From assembly GCF_014652235.1 (NCBI RefSeq), contig NZ_BMYK01000004.1:62001-126000 (forward strand): a stretch of DNA of 64,000 nt, given 5' to 3'. Each line of letters begins with the position of its first letter. Positions within the stretch are counted from its first letter, which is position 1. A program made the position numbers and the translations under genes. Positions 59,959-64,000 of the stretch are shown one piece after another. Under the pieces are notes generated by a model. That model saw only the letters and a program-made list of their open reading frames with translations. It searched no databases and was not told where the DNA came from. The stretch comes from Pseudorhodoferax aquiterrae (lineage in GTDB: Bacteria > Pseudomonadota > Gammaproteobacteria > Burkholderiales > Burkholderiaceae_C).

Positions 59959-61739
59959 CCCCGCGGCACTGGCCCGCGCCACCGCGCGCCGACGCCGCCG
60001 GCGTGCCGCCGACGCCGCCGCAGCTCGCGCGCTGGCACGAACAGGTGGAGGAACTCAGCGCCGGCGCCATCCGCGCGCTGAGCGGCGAGGCCGACCTGCA
60101 CTACCGCGGCCGGCGCCTGCACCGCGGCCGCCAACCGCTGCCGCTGTTCGGGCCGCACCTGGCGCCGGCGCTGGAGCAGGGTGACGACGCCGGCTCCTTC
60201 CGCGGCGCGGCCGACGGCATCGCGCTGCGGCTGGCCCACAGCGATGCGGCCCTGCACCGGCGCCTCTGCCCGCAGCCACCGGTGGAGCGGCTGCTGTTCG
60301 AGCTGCTGGAGCAGCTGCGCTGCGAGTCGCTCGCCGATCCCGCCATGCCCGGCGTGGCGCGCAACCTGCGCCACCGCTTCGACGCCTGGTCGCGCGCCTA
60401 CCACCATGCGCGGCTCAACGAGACCACGCGCGGCATGCTGCTCTACACCGTGGCCCAGATCGGCCGCTCGCGCGTGACGGGCGAGCCGGTCATGGAGGAG
60501 ACGGAAGACCTCATCGAAGGCACGCGCGCCGAACTCGTGCCGCAGCTGGGCACCGACCTGGCCGGCCTGCGCCGCCAGCGCCGCGACCAGGCCGCCTACG
60601 CGCAGCATGCGCTGGCCATCGCGCGCGCCGTGGCCGCCATGCTGGCGCACGGTGCCGAGGCGGCCGAGCAGCAGGCTGCCGAGCGCGAAGGCGATGACGA
60701 AGACAACGCCGCCGGCTTCCGCGTGCTGATGGACTTCGACCCGCCGGCCGGCGAGGCCGGCCGCCTGGCCCAGGCCGGCGATGCCCGCGTGCTCGAAGGC
60801 GGATCCGAGGCCTACCGGGTCTTCACGCGCGCCTACGACCGCGAGGTGGCCGCCGCCGCCCTGGTGCGCCCCGACGCACTGCGCGAACTGCGCGAGCGGC
60901 TGGACGCGCGCATCGCGCGCCAGGGCGTGCAGCTGCCCTGGCTGGTGCGCGCGCTGCAAGCCCTGCTGGCGCGCCCGCGCGAGGACGGCTGGCACGATGG
61001 TCAGGAGGAAGGCCTGCTCGACGGCCGCCGCCTGGCCCGGCTGGTGGCGCAGCCGACCGAGCGCCGGCTGTTCCGCGCCGCGCGCGACCAGCCGCTCGCA
61101 GACTGCGCCGTCACGCTGCTGCTCGATTGTTCGGCCTCGATGAAGGAGCATGCCGAGTGGACGGCCATGCTGGCCGACGTGCTGGCCCGTGCGCTGGAGC
61201 GCATCGGCGCGCGCTGCGAGGTGCTGGGCTTCACCACGGGCGCCTGGAACGGCGGCCGTGCCCAGCGCGACTGGCAGCGCGCCGGCCGGCCCGCGCGGCC
61301 GGGCCGGCTCAACGAGCTGTGCCACATTGTGTTCAAGGACGCGGCCACACCCTGGCGCCGTGCGCGGCCCGGCCTCGCCGCGCTGCTCAAGCCTGACCTG
61401 TTCCGCGAAGGCGTGGACGGCGAGGCCCTGCAGTGGGCCGCCGGCCGGCTTGCCGCGCTGGACTCCGACCGGCGCATCCTGCTGGTCTTCTCCGACGGCT
61501 GCCCCATGGACGGCGCCACGCGCCTGGCCAACGGCGCCCACTGTCTGGACCGCCACCTGCAGCAGGTGGCGCAGCGCATCGAGCAGCAGGGGCGGATCGC
61601 GCTCTACGGCGTGGGGGTCGGGCTGGACCTGAGCCCCTATTACGCGGCCAGCCATGTGCTGGACCTGGCCCACGCTGGCGCGGGCAACGCGGTGTTCCGC
61701 GAAGTGGTGGGGGTGCTGGGCGGGCGGGGGCGGCGCTGA
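59955..61739 (+). CDS. CobT-like VWA-domain protein
   Basis: A 594-residue partner of the AAA+ ATPase. The N-terminal half is a helical cobaltochelatase-CobT-like region (VEELSAGAIRALSGEADL, RCESLADPAMPGVARNLRHRFDAW) with an acidic spacer AEREGDDEDN near residue 240. The C-terminal VWA domain has an intact metal-ion adhesion site starting at residue 391 (LLLDCSASMKEHAEW) and LLVFSDGCPMDGATRL. It is translationally coupled to the ATPase (ATGA). Such pairs act as metal chelatase or maturation machines. Confidence 0.85.
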   Translation: MTPRHWPAPPRADAAGVPPTPPQLARWHEQVEELSAGAIRALSGEADLHYRGRRLHRGRQPLPLFGPHLAPALEQGDDAGSFRGAADGIALRLAHSDAALHRRLCPQPPVERLLFELLEQLRCESLADPAMPGVARNLRHRFDAWSRAYHHARLNETTRGMLLYTVAQIGRSRVTGEPVMEETEDLIEGTRAELVPQLGTDLAGLRRQRRDQAAYAQHALAIARAVAAMLAHGAEAAEQQAAEREGDDEDNAAGFRVLMDFDPPAGEAGRLAQAGDARVLEGGSEAYRVFTRAYDREVAAAALVRPDALRELRERLDARIARQGVQLPWLVRALQALLARPREDGWHDGQEEGLLDGRRLARLVAQPTERRLFRAARDQPLADCAVTLLLDCSASMKEHAEWTAMLADVLARALERIGARCEVLGFTTGAWNGGRAQRDWQRAGRPARPGRLNELCHIVFKDAATPWRRARPGLAALLKPDLFREGVDGEALQWAAGRLAALDSDRRILLVFSDGCPMDGATRLANGAHCLDRHLQQVAQRIEQQGRIALYGVGVGLDLSPYYAASHVLDLAHAGAGNAVFREVVGVLGGRGRR

Positions 61740-61750
61740 CGGGCCTGCGG

Positions 61751-62155
61751 TCAAGCTCGCCAGAGCCTGAACGGCACATGGCGAGCGGCGTGGACGAAAT
61801 CCAGGTCGGTCGAAAGCAGGGTCAGTTCGTGCCGGCCGCAGAGTTGGATCAACAGCGCATCGATGGTTCCGATCTGCACGCCCGCCCTGCGGCAGGTGTT
61901 TCGCACCTCGGCGGCGGCAATGTGGTCCTGCCGGTCCGGCGCGATGATGGGCAAGGCCTGGAAGCGTTCGATCAGGGCCGCAGCGGCGCGCGGGCCGTGG
62001 AAGCCCTGCAACAGCTCCTGCAGCACCAGGCCTGTCGTCACGACCGTGTCTGCCCCGGCGAGCGCCTCGCGCAGCAGCTGAACTTCCGGCGCCGTCGCGG
62101 TTCCGTCGCGCCGCAGCGCAAGCGACCACACGCTAGTGTCGACCAGCAGGCTCAC
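61751..62155 (-). CDS. vapC: VapC-type PIN-domain toxin (ribonuclease)
   Basis: A 134-residue PIN nuclease. The acidic metal residues are Asp6 (LLVDTSVWSLALRRD), Glu in TGLVLQELLQGF, Asp in IGTIDALLIQLCGRH, and Asp in LLSTDLDFVHAARH. It cleaves RNA when freed from its antitoxin. The start is GTG 62155; no in-frame ATG fits the family start. The upstream vapB stop is 119 bases away, occupied by a tandem repeat. GTGA here overlaps the stop of a 41-codon frame inside that repeat, so translation may still be coupled to vapB. Confidence 0.87.
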   Translation of the reverse strand: MSLLVDTSVWSLALRRDGTATAPEVQLLREALAGADTVVTTGLVLQELLQGFHGPRAAAALIERFQALPIIAPDRQDHIAAAEVRNTCRRAGVQIGTIDALLIQLCGRHELTLLSTDLDFVHAARHVPFRLWRA

Positions 62156-62277
62156 GGAGTACCTTCGCGCTGCGCGCTGCGGTGCTGAGCACCTCGGAGC
62201 GGCCCGGCGGTGCTCACTGGAGTACCTTCGGCTTCGCCTGCGGTGCGAGCGCCTTCGGGCGGCCGGGCGGCGCTCAT
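62152..62277 (-). CDS. 41-codon frame inside the vapBC spacer repeat
   Basis: The frame starts at ATG 62277, overlapping the vapB stop as ATGA, and ends at TGA 62152-62154, overlapping the vapC GTG as GTGA. Its product begins MSAARPPEGARTAGEAEGTP and continues VSTAGPLRGAQHRSAQREGTP. Nothing suggests a folded protein. Its value may be to carry ribosomes from vapB to vapC across the insert. Whether it is translated is unknown. Confidence 0.35.
   Translation of the reverse strand: MSAARPPEGARTAGEAEGTPVSTAGPLRGAQHRSAQREGTP
62155..62276. repeat. Two-unit tandem repeat inserted between vapB and vapC
   Basis: Two related units, 62155-62216 (62 bases) and 62217-62276 (60 bases), each begin with GGAGTACCTTCG after one or two bases and end in GGCGGTGCTCA or GGGCGGCGCTCA. 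The word GCTCA marks the boundaries (62150-62154, 62212-62216, 62272-62276). Removing both units would join vapB and vapC in a simple ATGA overlap, with vapC starting ATG-AGC. The element therefore looks like an insertion, perhaps a short interspersed repeat of this group of bacteria. Confidence 0.7.
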
Positions 62278-62474
62278 GCGCGGCTGCGTTCCGCCTTGTG
62301 GTCGTAGCTGGCATCCCAGTCGAGCTTGCCGAACAGCTCCGCCAGCTTGTGCTGTTCACGGCGTGCCACGAATTCCTTCAAGGCCAGTGTGACGGCGGCC
62401 TTCTTGGTCGGCTCTCCACTGAGTTCCAGAACCTGGTCCAGCAGCCGGGGATCGAGTGCAAGGTTGGTTGCCAT
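62274..62474 (-). CDS. vapB: VapB-type antitoxin
   Basis: A 66-residue antitoxin. MATNLALDPRLLDQVLELSGEPTKKAAVTLALKEFVARREQHKLAELFG is the ribbon-helix-helix-like VapB pattern; the C-terminal tail LDWDASYDHKAERSRA would bind the toxin. The start at 62474 is preceded by AAGGAGG-type sequence. It normally overlaps vapC but here is separated by the repeat. It would repress its own operon. Confidence 0.85.
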   Translation of the reverse strand: MATNLALDPRLLDQVLELSGEPTKKAAVTLALKEFVARREQHKLAELFGKLDWDASYDHKAERSRA

Positions 62475-62561
62475 GTGTGCCTCCTTGTGTGGAAGTCTAC
62501 ACACGCCGTTCCGACGTTGCGAGGGGCAGGGGCATCGGCGTTGCAGGACGCCTGTGCGAGC

Positions 62562-63104
62562 ATGCAGGCCATGCCCGATCTGCGCCAGCTGTCCCGCCAG
62601 TTCCCCCATGCCGGCCGCGTGCAGGCCATCGTGCTGCGGCCCGCGCGCGACGCGCCGGCGCTGTCGGTGCAGCGTGCGCTGGCGCTGCCGGAGCGCGGCC
62701 TGCAGGGCGACCGCAGCGCCGCGCGGCCTTCCGCGCGCCCGGGTGGCGGCAAGCGGCAGGTCACGCTGCTGCAGGCCGAGCACCTGCCGCTGCTCGCGGC
62801 ATGGACCCGGTTGCCGCACATCGCGCCCACGCTGCTGCGCCGCAACCTCGTGGTCGAAGGGCTGAACCTCGTCGCGGCACGCACGCTGTTCGCCGACCAG
62901 GCGCTGGAACTGCACATCGGCGCAGCTGTGGTGCTGCAGCTGACCGGCCCCTGCGATCCCTGCTCGAAGATGGAGGCTGCGCTGGGGCCGGGCGGCTACA
63001 ACGCACTGCGCGGCCATGGCGGCATGACGGCACGCGTGCTGCAGGGCGGGGAGATCGCGGTGGGGGATGCGGTGCGGGTGGTGGCCGTGCCGGCCGGCAC
63101 CTGA
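62562..63104 (+). CDS. MOSC-domain protein
   Basis: About 180 residues of the MOSC fold found in molybdenum cofactor sulfurases and YiiM-like enzymes: GRVQAIVLRPARDAPALSVQRALALPERGLQGDRS, KRQVTLLQAEHLPLLAAWTR, LLRRNLVVEGLNLVAARTLF and the cysteine motif LTGPCDPCSKMEAALGPGGYNALRGHGGMTARVL. Such proteins carry sulfur or use Mo-cofactor. ATG 62562 or 62571 may be the start. It is a single gene divergent from vapB. Confidence 0.85.
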   Translation: MQAMPDLRQLSRQFPHAGRVQAIVLRPARDAPALSVQRALALPERGLQGDRSAARPSARPGGGKRQVTLLQAEHLPLLAAWTRLPHIAPTLLRRNLVVEGLNLVAARTLFADQALELHIGAAVVLQLTGPCDPCSKMEAALGPGGYNALRGHGGMTARVLQGGEIAVGDAVRVVAVPAGT

Positions 63105-63134
63105 CCGGCCACTTCGTCGGCGCGCAGGGCCGCC

Positions 63135-63698
63135 TCAGCCCTCTGCCGACTCCTGCAGCGCGCGGATCTCGGCCTCGCTCCAGCGCGGCGTGATGTGCTG
63201 CGGGCAGTTCCAGTCGAAGGCCTGCAGCCGCAGCCGCACGATGCGCTCGGGCCGGCCGCGGTAGCCCGGCACCGCGACCCGGGCGGTCAGCGCCGGGTCG
63301 GCGTCGAGCGCGAGCGTCTCGGCGTGGGCGTAGACCTTGAGCCGCGCGCGGCGCCGGTAGTCCATCAGGAACAGGCAGACCTTGTCGCTGGCCTGCAGGT
63401 TGCCGGTGCTGATGTACTGCCGGTTGCCGCGGAAGTCGGCAAAGGCCAGCGTGCGCTCGTCCAGCAGCTTCAGGAAGCCGCGCGGCCCGCCGCGGTGCTG
63501 CATGTAGGGCCAGCCCGTCTCCGACACCGTGGCCATGTAGAAGCTGTCGCGCTCGGCGATGAAGGCGGCCTCGGCTTCGGTGAAGCGGTCGAAGCTGCGG
63601 TCGTCCCGCACGTCGGTCCACAGGTGGTCGGCGCCCATCGCCGCCTGCGCGGCGCGCACGCTGGGGGTGATGGCGATGTCGAGGAATCCGTAGGACAT
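63135..63698 (-). CDS. Pyridoxamine 5'-phosphate oxidase-fold flavin protein
   Basis: A 187-residue split-barrel flavin-binding protein: DRFTEAEAAFIAERDSFYMATVSETGWPYMQHRGGPRGFLKLLDERTLAFADFRGNRQYISTGNLQASDKVCLFLMDYRRRARLKVYAHAE. This is the common general-stress/PNPOx-like form, not true PdxH. It probably reduces or binds a flavin substrate; the precise reaction is unknown. GGAGA precedes its ATG at 63698. It is divergent from a LysR gene, its likely regulator. Confidence 0.87.
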   Translation of the reverse strand: MSYGFLDIAITPSVRAAQAAMGADHLWTDVRDDRSFDRFTEAEAAFIAERDSFYMATVSETGWPYMQHRGGPRGFLKLLDERTLAFADFRGNRQYISTGNLQASDKVCLFLMDYRRRARLKVYAHAETLALDADPALTARVAVPGYRGRPERIVRLRLQAFDWNCPQHITPRWSEAEIRALQESAEG

Positions 63699-63802
63699 GG
63701 TGTTCTCCTGGTGGAGTTGCCATGGTGCACCTTTCCATCTGATTTGATAATCCGGTTCTGGGAAGAATCAGTCTCCCGAAATCTGGAAGGATGCGCCGGC
63801 CC

Positions 63803-64000
63803 ATGGACCGTCTGAAAGCGATGGCGATGCTCGTGAAGGTCACGGAGACCGGCAGCCTGTCGGCCGCCGGACGGGCGCTGCAGATGCCGCTGGCCACGCT
63901 GAGCCGCCGCATCTCGGACCTGGAGGCGCAGCTGGGCACGCGGCTGTTGACCCGCACCACGCGCAAGCTCACGCTGACGGATGCGGGCCAGGCCTACGTG
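63803..64000 (+). CDS. LysR-family regulator, cut by window end
   Basis: The first 66 codons of a LysR protein are present and open to the window edge. The helix-turn-helix is clear: MDRLKAMAMLVKVTETGSLSAAGRALQMPLATLSRRISDLEAQLGTRLLTRTTRKLTLTDAGQAYV. ATG 63803 gives the usual LysR N-terminus; ATG 63791 would add four residues but abuts the GGAAGG site. It is divergent from the flavin-fold gene, across 104 bases that include an AT-rich stretch at 63741-63751. Confidence 0.85.
   Translation, partial: MDRLKAMAMLVKVTETGSLSAAGRALQMPLATLSRRISDLEAQLGTRLLTRTTRKLTLTDAGQAYV

Follow-up and report, generated by a model that had tools for sequence, protein, structure and literature searches.

The insert that parts vapB from vapC in the window, a 64,000-nucleotide stretch of Pseudorhodoferax aquiterrae DNA, is, on the evidence of its sequence, composed of two units of a dispersed Betaproteobacterial intercistronic repeat family. 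Units of this family lie at the junctions of codirectional genes, nearly always in one orientation, and a comparison of the copies with their neighbouring genes makes it probable, at roughly 0.75, that they work like the MIRUs of mycobacteria, relaying ribosomes between one gene and the next. The adjacent genes encode a VapB_antitoxin domain and a PIN domain, both above the Pfam cut-off, which marks the pair as a type II VapBC toxin-antitoxin system. The features of the junction are as follows.

62274..62474, minus strand: vapB antitoxin gene, 66 amino acids, ending in ATGA (Pfam PF09957 VapB_antitoxin, E 1.8e-13)
62152..62277, minus strand: relay frame of 41 codons, with its ATG on the vapB stop and its TGA on the vapC GTG
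62218..62277, minus strand: repeat unit 1, 60 bases, GAGCGCC subtype
62247..62275, minus strand: hairpin 1 of unit 1, arms GAGCGCC / GGCGCTC, beginning within the vapB stop codon (from sequence)
62224..62229, minus strand: GAAGGT, a Shine-Dalgarno-like motif at the end of unit 1
62156..62217, minus strand: repeat unit 2, 62 bases, GAGCACC subtype
62187..62215, minus strand: hairpin 1 of unit 2, arms GAGCACC / GGTGCTC (from sequence)
62161..62166, minus strand: GAAGGT, a Shine-Dalgarno-like motif 5 bases short of the vapC GTG
61751..62155, minus strand: vapC toxin gene, PIN domain, with a GTG start overlapped by the relay-frame stop (Pfam PF01850 PIN, E 1.2e-13)

Read along the minus strand from 62277 to 62152, the insert has the form ATGAGC...TCCA-GTGAGC...TCC-GTGA. 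The original prediction, that a tandem repeat of two units separates the two genes, is confirmed in its main part, with units of 60 and 62 bases on the minus strand. These are not a perfect duplicate, but divergent subtypes that agree in 53 of 64 aligned columns (83%). The array has the highest Tandem Repeats Finder score of the window (174, against 61 for the runner-up), and GAAGGTACTCC is found twice in the 64 kb at up to one mismatch, where 0.15 occurrences are expected. The predicted 41-codon frame is likewise present in the sequence: its ATG overlaps the vapB stop as ATGA at 62274-62277, its TGA overlaps the vapC start as GTGA at 62152-62155, and between them it encodes MSAARPPEGARTAGEAEGTPVSTAGPLRGAQHRSAQREGTP, followed by TGA. 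The SAARPPEG/EGTP peptide is the element's own translation, and in copies that read in frame it would, to judge from their sequence, lengthen the downstream protein at its N-terminus. A scan of positions 61000-64000 gave no Rfam match to the insert region up to an E-value of 1, and phages searched for a match gave none.

Comparison with relatives reveals how the vapBC junction appears when the insert is missing. A search of 399 genomes from the family gave 31 with VapC homologues at E of 1e-15 or below, P. aquiterrae itself among them; one matched genome was without a locus, and of the 29 relatives compared two were without a vapB match, leaving 27 readable loci. None of the 27 carries the insert. 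Instead, 19 have a bare 4-base overlap and seven have gaps of 1 to 14 bases, while in one (L055) the start is miscalled. Five of the 27 are distant members (VapC 38-39%); the closest relative (VapC 84%, VapB 89%) reads CCCATGACA at the junction. The assertion that vapB and vapC would otherwise overlap as ATGA is in line with the 19 bare 4-base overlaps, and the long spacer, which would have counted against a mobile insert had all relatives shared it, is present in none of the 27 readable loci.

Similar empty sites are seen at other junctions. Between prfA, the gene of release factor 1, and prmC, a unit is present in P. aquiterrae with a 59-base gap; the five congeners comprise three with a bare GTGA, one whose unit is degenerate and lies in phase 1 (57-base gap) and one with a shortened unit. 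Beyond the genus, a 4-base overlap is found in four of 21 readable loci and unit-free spacers of tens of bases in many; the set of 30 prfA-prmC loci from which these counts derive includes three without an upstream match and one that was wrongly joined. At the junction annotated as GTP cyclohydrolase II-like/DUF1688, the spacer in P. aquiterrae is 77 bases, and the five congeners show a bare ATGA (three), a 1-base gap (one) and two tandem units (one). The mnhF-mnhG junction, between two antiporter subunit genes, holds in P. aquiterrae and in one congener a unit with a 3' half that contains a G run. The remaining congeners have a 10-base gap (two) or a different insert (two), so that none of the five shows a bare overlap; outside the genus, the bare overlap occurs at seven of 16 loci, and one locus carries a unit with another 3' half at the same base. 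The different inserts of the two congeners (L342 and L344, gaps of 117 and 103) are located at the same ATGA and share GAGGACGAGGGGCCCCGCTTGC, and their presence suggests that this junction has been hit repeatedly. Finally, at the acyl-CoA dehydrogenase/ligase junction, the congeners have gaps of 4 to 5 bases (three) or 22 to 24 bases (two) and no overlaps.

At four of five junctions, therefore (vapBC, prfA-prmC, mnhF-mnhG and GTP cyclohydrolase II-like/DUF1688), at least some insert-free relatives possess an xTGA overlap. Because these relatives show the bare 4-base overlap, a filled site carries the xTGA overlap twice, once for each gene. It is from such empty sites, that is, from sequence comparison, that we infer the insertion event itself. 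The overlap is followed by GC in 39 of 71 filled sites and in 14 of 48 element-free 4-base overlaps (p 0.008), and this excess gives a mild hint of a target preference.

The family to which the two units belong extends well beyond this genome. A pattern for the 3' half, in which neither end was included, was scanned over 84,980 species, each represented by one genome, and matched at least 119 stretches. The matches listed comprise 80 named loci with 87 copies; all 80 stand under Betaproteobacterial organism names, mostly Variovorax, with Xenophilus, Rhodoferax, Aquabacterium, Hydrogenophaga and others also represented. Outside the family, an exact pattern of the 3' half gave no match in the 146 genomes scanned from the rest of the order. 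For 79 copies among the matches listed, the spacing between the two starts is most often 65 (47 copies) or 62 (20), and more rarely 63 (five), 66 (five), 61 (one) or 67 (one). Seven plasmid records contain a match (five from Variovorax, one each from Diaphorobacter and Rhodoferax), and the four plasmid copies viewed with their annotation each lie between two codirectional genes. On a plasmid of Variovorax sp. SRS16 (L034, 2007-2073), the start of PhnK is annotated at the element's own 5' ATG. Aquabacterium sp. A7-Y has two or more tandem units at each of four places (L120, L129, L132 and L137).

A second pattern, restricted to the 5' half, was found at 53 places, spread over 24 of the 250 family genomes scanned, and several different 3' halves follow it. 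Three of these are the window's own, one that ends in GAAGGGTGCACCAATGA, and one with a G run before the ATG.

Among the matches listed, an xTGA lies 27 to 39 bases ahead of the core in 83 of 87 3'-half copies (ATGA in 78), and a start codon lies 0 to 4 bases past the core in 83 of 87. Of the places located by the 5' half, 52 were scored, and at 48 of them the upstream frame closing at the TGA outscores the other five. Merging the matches listed gave 127 arrays, of which 11 near locus edges were left out, and annotated plasmid genes served to seed the codon model by which the frames around the other 116 were scored. The original prediction had named a unit found mostly away from gene junctions as evidence against it; in fact, the TGA of the element is the stop of the best-of-six upstream frame in 101 of the 116 arrays, where chance would give one in six, whereas the other 15 arrays have an upstream frame that closes elsewhere. 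The best downstream frame shares the strand of the upstream one in 100 of the 101.

The reading phase across the element is also biased. Twelve of the 101 arrays were left out because they contained an in-frame stop, scored low or had an antisense frame downstream; the 89 confident arrays that remained among the matches listed divide into 70 in phase 2, 15 in phase 0 and four in phase 1. In every one of the 70 phase 2 arrays, the stop of the relay frame overlaps the xTGA that opens a stop-free downstream frame. Of the phase 0 arrays, 13 read open into the next gene, and the relay frames of the other two (L114 and L120) stop; together with the four in phase 1, six of the 89 arrays thus have neither geometry. 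Among those in phase 1, two are tandem (L262 and L272), and another, L069, has a weak score and a call that is contradicted by another scoring. Against a random third for each phase, the scarcity of phase 1 has a p-value of 3.6e-11. Since the copies share ancestry, however, the bias partly reflects fixed element lengths. Spacers were accordingly clustered at 85% identity within phases, those of phases 0 and 1 being trimmed to 66 bases, and phases 2, 0 and 1 then account for 19, seven and three of 29 clusters. The p-value of 0.0045 for phase 1 in this clustered test is far weaker than that of the unclustered one. The relay clusters span eleven lengths (62, 65, 68, 77, 86, 89, 92, 131, 143, 149 and 158). 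The proposal of a mobile repeat that keeps stop-start geometry is, as far as sequence can speak to it, mostly supported by the 70 relay arrays and 13 in-frame arrays, set against six with neither.

Taken as a relay, the element would operate in the following manner. It would insert at xTGA and duplicate it; a ribosome that stops at the end of the upstream gene would then restart at the overlapping ATG and read the short relay frame, and at the next xTGA a Shine-Dalgarno motif would aid restart on the downstream gene. Every insertion would renew the xTGA target, and tandem units would therefore be expected, as at vapBC. There, the relay would tie translation of the toxin to that of the antitoxin across a 118-base gap. 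In the reporter work of PMC10666635, a 38-nt gap cost two E. coli gene pairs 80-90% of their reinitiation and left a third pair with none. As a gap of that size removes most or all of the coupling in those pairs, vapB and vapC should be uncoupled by a 118-base spacer that had no relay.

The signals for restart were assessed in 33 relay arrays that had not been selected on their 3' end. Pairing with the anti-Shine-Dalgarno sequence averages -7.8 kcal/mol in these arrays and -4.9 kcal/mol in letter shuffles, and it reaches -5 in 26 of the 33, compared with 49% of shuffles. A role for hairpin 2 in hiding the Shine-Dalgarno motif was considered and rejected, as the mean unpaired value on folding was 0.41 with the 5' part and 0.46 without it (69 arrays).

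Such a motif also admits an explanation in which the relay frame is idle. The element could be a selfish repeat whose usual length happens by chance to be 2 mod 3, and which survives at junctions as it is harmful elsewhere, with the Shine-Dalgarno motif alone restarting translation of the downstream gene. Many copies do carry a strong Shine-Dalgarno-like motif, and 67 of the 79 3'-half copies measured among the matches listed are 62 or 65 long. The six arrays of 89 with neither geometry, as well as the phase 1 unit between prfA and prmC in one congener, also speak for a passive repeat. Yet the relay phase is also kept by other 3' halves and by composites, with spacers of 77, 89, 131, 143, 149, 158 and others, and the departures from it fall mostly into phase 0, where 13 of 15 open into the next gene. 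A passive passenger of this kind is judged unlikely, and the relay reading is retained.

A further question is whether the element acts as an RNA structure, in the manner of a REP-like hairpin that affects mRNA stability, processing or differential operon expression, with the coding phase as a side effect. In an alignment of 69 copies, the arms of hairpin 1 co-vary in many, for example as GAGC/GCTC, GAAC/GTTC, GATCACC/GGTGATC and GAGCCCC/GGGGCTC, so that arms which differ between copies remain complementary; one pair of hairpin 2 covaries as well (UA in 55 and CG in 11 of the 69). However, the outer stem of hairpin 1 has three pairs or fewer in 13 of the 69 copies, the covarying pair of hairpin 2 is one of seven, and a control slid by +3 scores equally high. 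Strong RNA structure in the window insert was likewise rejected, since with a z of -0.62 it is no more stable than its shuffles. An RNA hairpin would, moreover, leave the phase bias unexplained, and we regard it as a very improbable account of the family.

The genome also contains a related element of about 85 bases, family B (L217-L240), whose hairpin arms vary between copies, being complementary in many and mismatched in others. In two copies (L229 and L231), one arm appears to hold the start codon of the neighbouring gene, and it may be that insertion copies the arms out of the target. Family B bears on the least credible of the alternatives, namely that the units are REP elements mobilised by a RAYT (a Y1 transposase, PF01797): the single PF01797 match of the genome does have a family B copy directly ahead of its start codon (L067, 1828-1907), but the hairpin motif occurs at none of 43 other distinct PF01797 loci, those of five congeners among them, and RAYT mobilisation is therefore not supported. 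Two of these loci had been sampled twice and are counted once in the 43, and several are probably IS200-type transposases rather than RAYTs; the motif recovers 21 of the 24 loci of family B and, among loci with the unit, 67 of 80, such that some diverged copies could escape it. No mobilising enzyme was found among the PF01797 loci examined.

The range of 3' halves raises a broader possibility, which is put forward tentatively and with less than even confidence. Betaproteobacteria may have arrived, independently of mycobacteria, at modular mobile translational relays, in which a palindromic 5' half at the upstream stop is joined to interchangeable 3' halves and the phase is held, so that insertion re-spaces operons and retunes their coupling. 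If so, the landing at vapBC would retune the ratio of toxin to antitoxin. The natural copies, the empty sites of congeners and the varied 3' halves together offer a ready test of relay distance and phase. There is also a consequence for annotation, in that in-frame copies pass for N-terminal extensions, PhnK of Variovorax sp. SRS16 being an example.

Among known systems, the closest likeness is to MIRUs, which target DTGA, overlap the neighbouring genes at both ends and occur as tandem copies. The Betaproteobacterial unit similarly lies between codirectional genes and runs parallel to them (upstream in 101 of 116 arrays, downstream in 100 of 101), its internal frame forms a 4-base overlap with the neighbouring gene in 70 of 89 arrays and in the vapBC window, and, in parallel with DTGA, an xTGA coupling site appears to be its insertion target at four of five junctions. 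In the summary that PMC12548453 gives of Supply et al. 1997, MIRUs are apparently mobile, insert at start codons and contain an internal frame coupled at -4, a design thought to allow insertion with little effect on expression. The two differ in host phylum, and the Betaproteobacterial family, set beside MIRUs by description, has a palindromic hairpin as well as several 3' halves, and its units end in a Shine-Dalgarno-like motif.

Other repeats are more distant. The BRE is described in the available portion of Hot et al. 2011 (PMC3110155) as a short GC-rich repeat of Bordetella and Comamonadaceae, some 90 bp long and ranging from 75 to 91 bp in Bordetella; it is usually intergenic, at times tandem, and in some places runs a few bases into the end of a gene; no function or junction rule is proposed for it there. 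By description, it may be the same as the family B element of about 85 bases. REP, BIME and REPIN sequences, to the extent that they are covered by the parts of PMC2817692 and PMC3733652 consulted, are, like the present units, small palindromic dispersed repeats. Unlike them, the present units show no RAYT association at the PF01797 loci examined and are biased in orientation and phase relative to genes, and no GTAG or CGTC tag is apparent by eye in the unit consensus. The bicistronic design outlined in PMC12548453 also employs a short frame to bring ribosomes to a downstream gene, but that design is engineered, whereas the present units are natural and dispersed.

Literature searches, limited to open-access papers, brought up none that places a repeat family of this kind at stop-start junctions in Burkholderiales. 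By analogy with MIRUs, as they are summarised in PMC12548453, the working principle of the putative relay is itself already known and is not new. What looks new is a Betaproteobacterial set that combines a palindromic hairpin with several exchangeable 3' halves. After MIRUs, these units would be the second example, from a phylogenetically distant group, of repeats hitting stop-start overlaps while keeping the hand-over of reading from one gene to the next.
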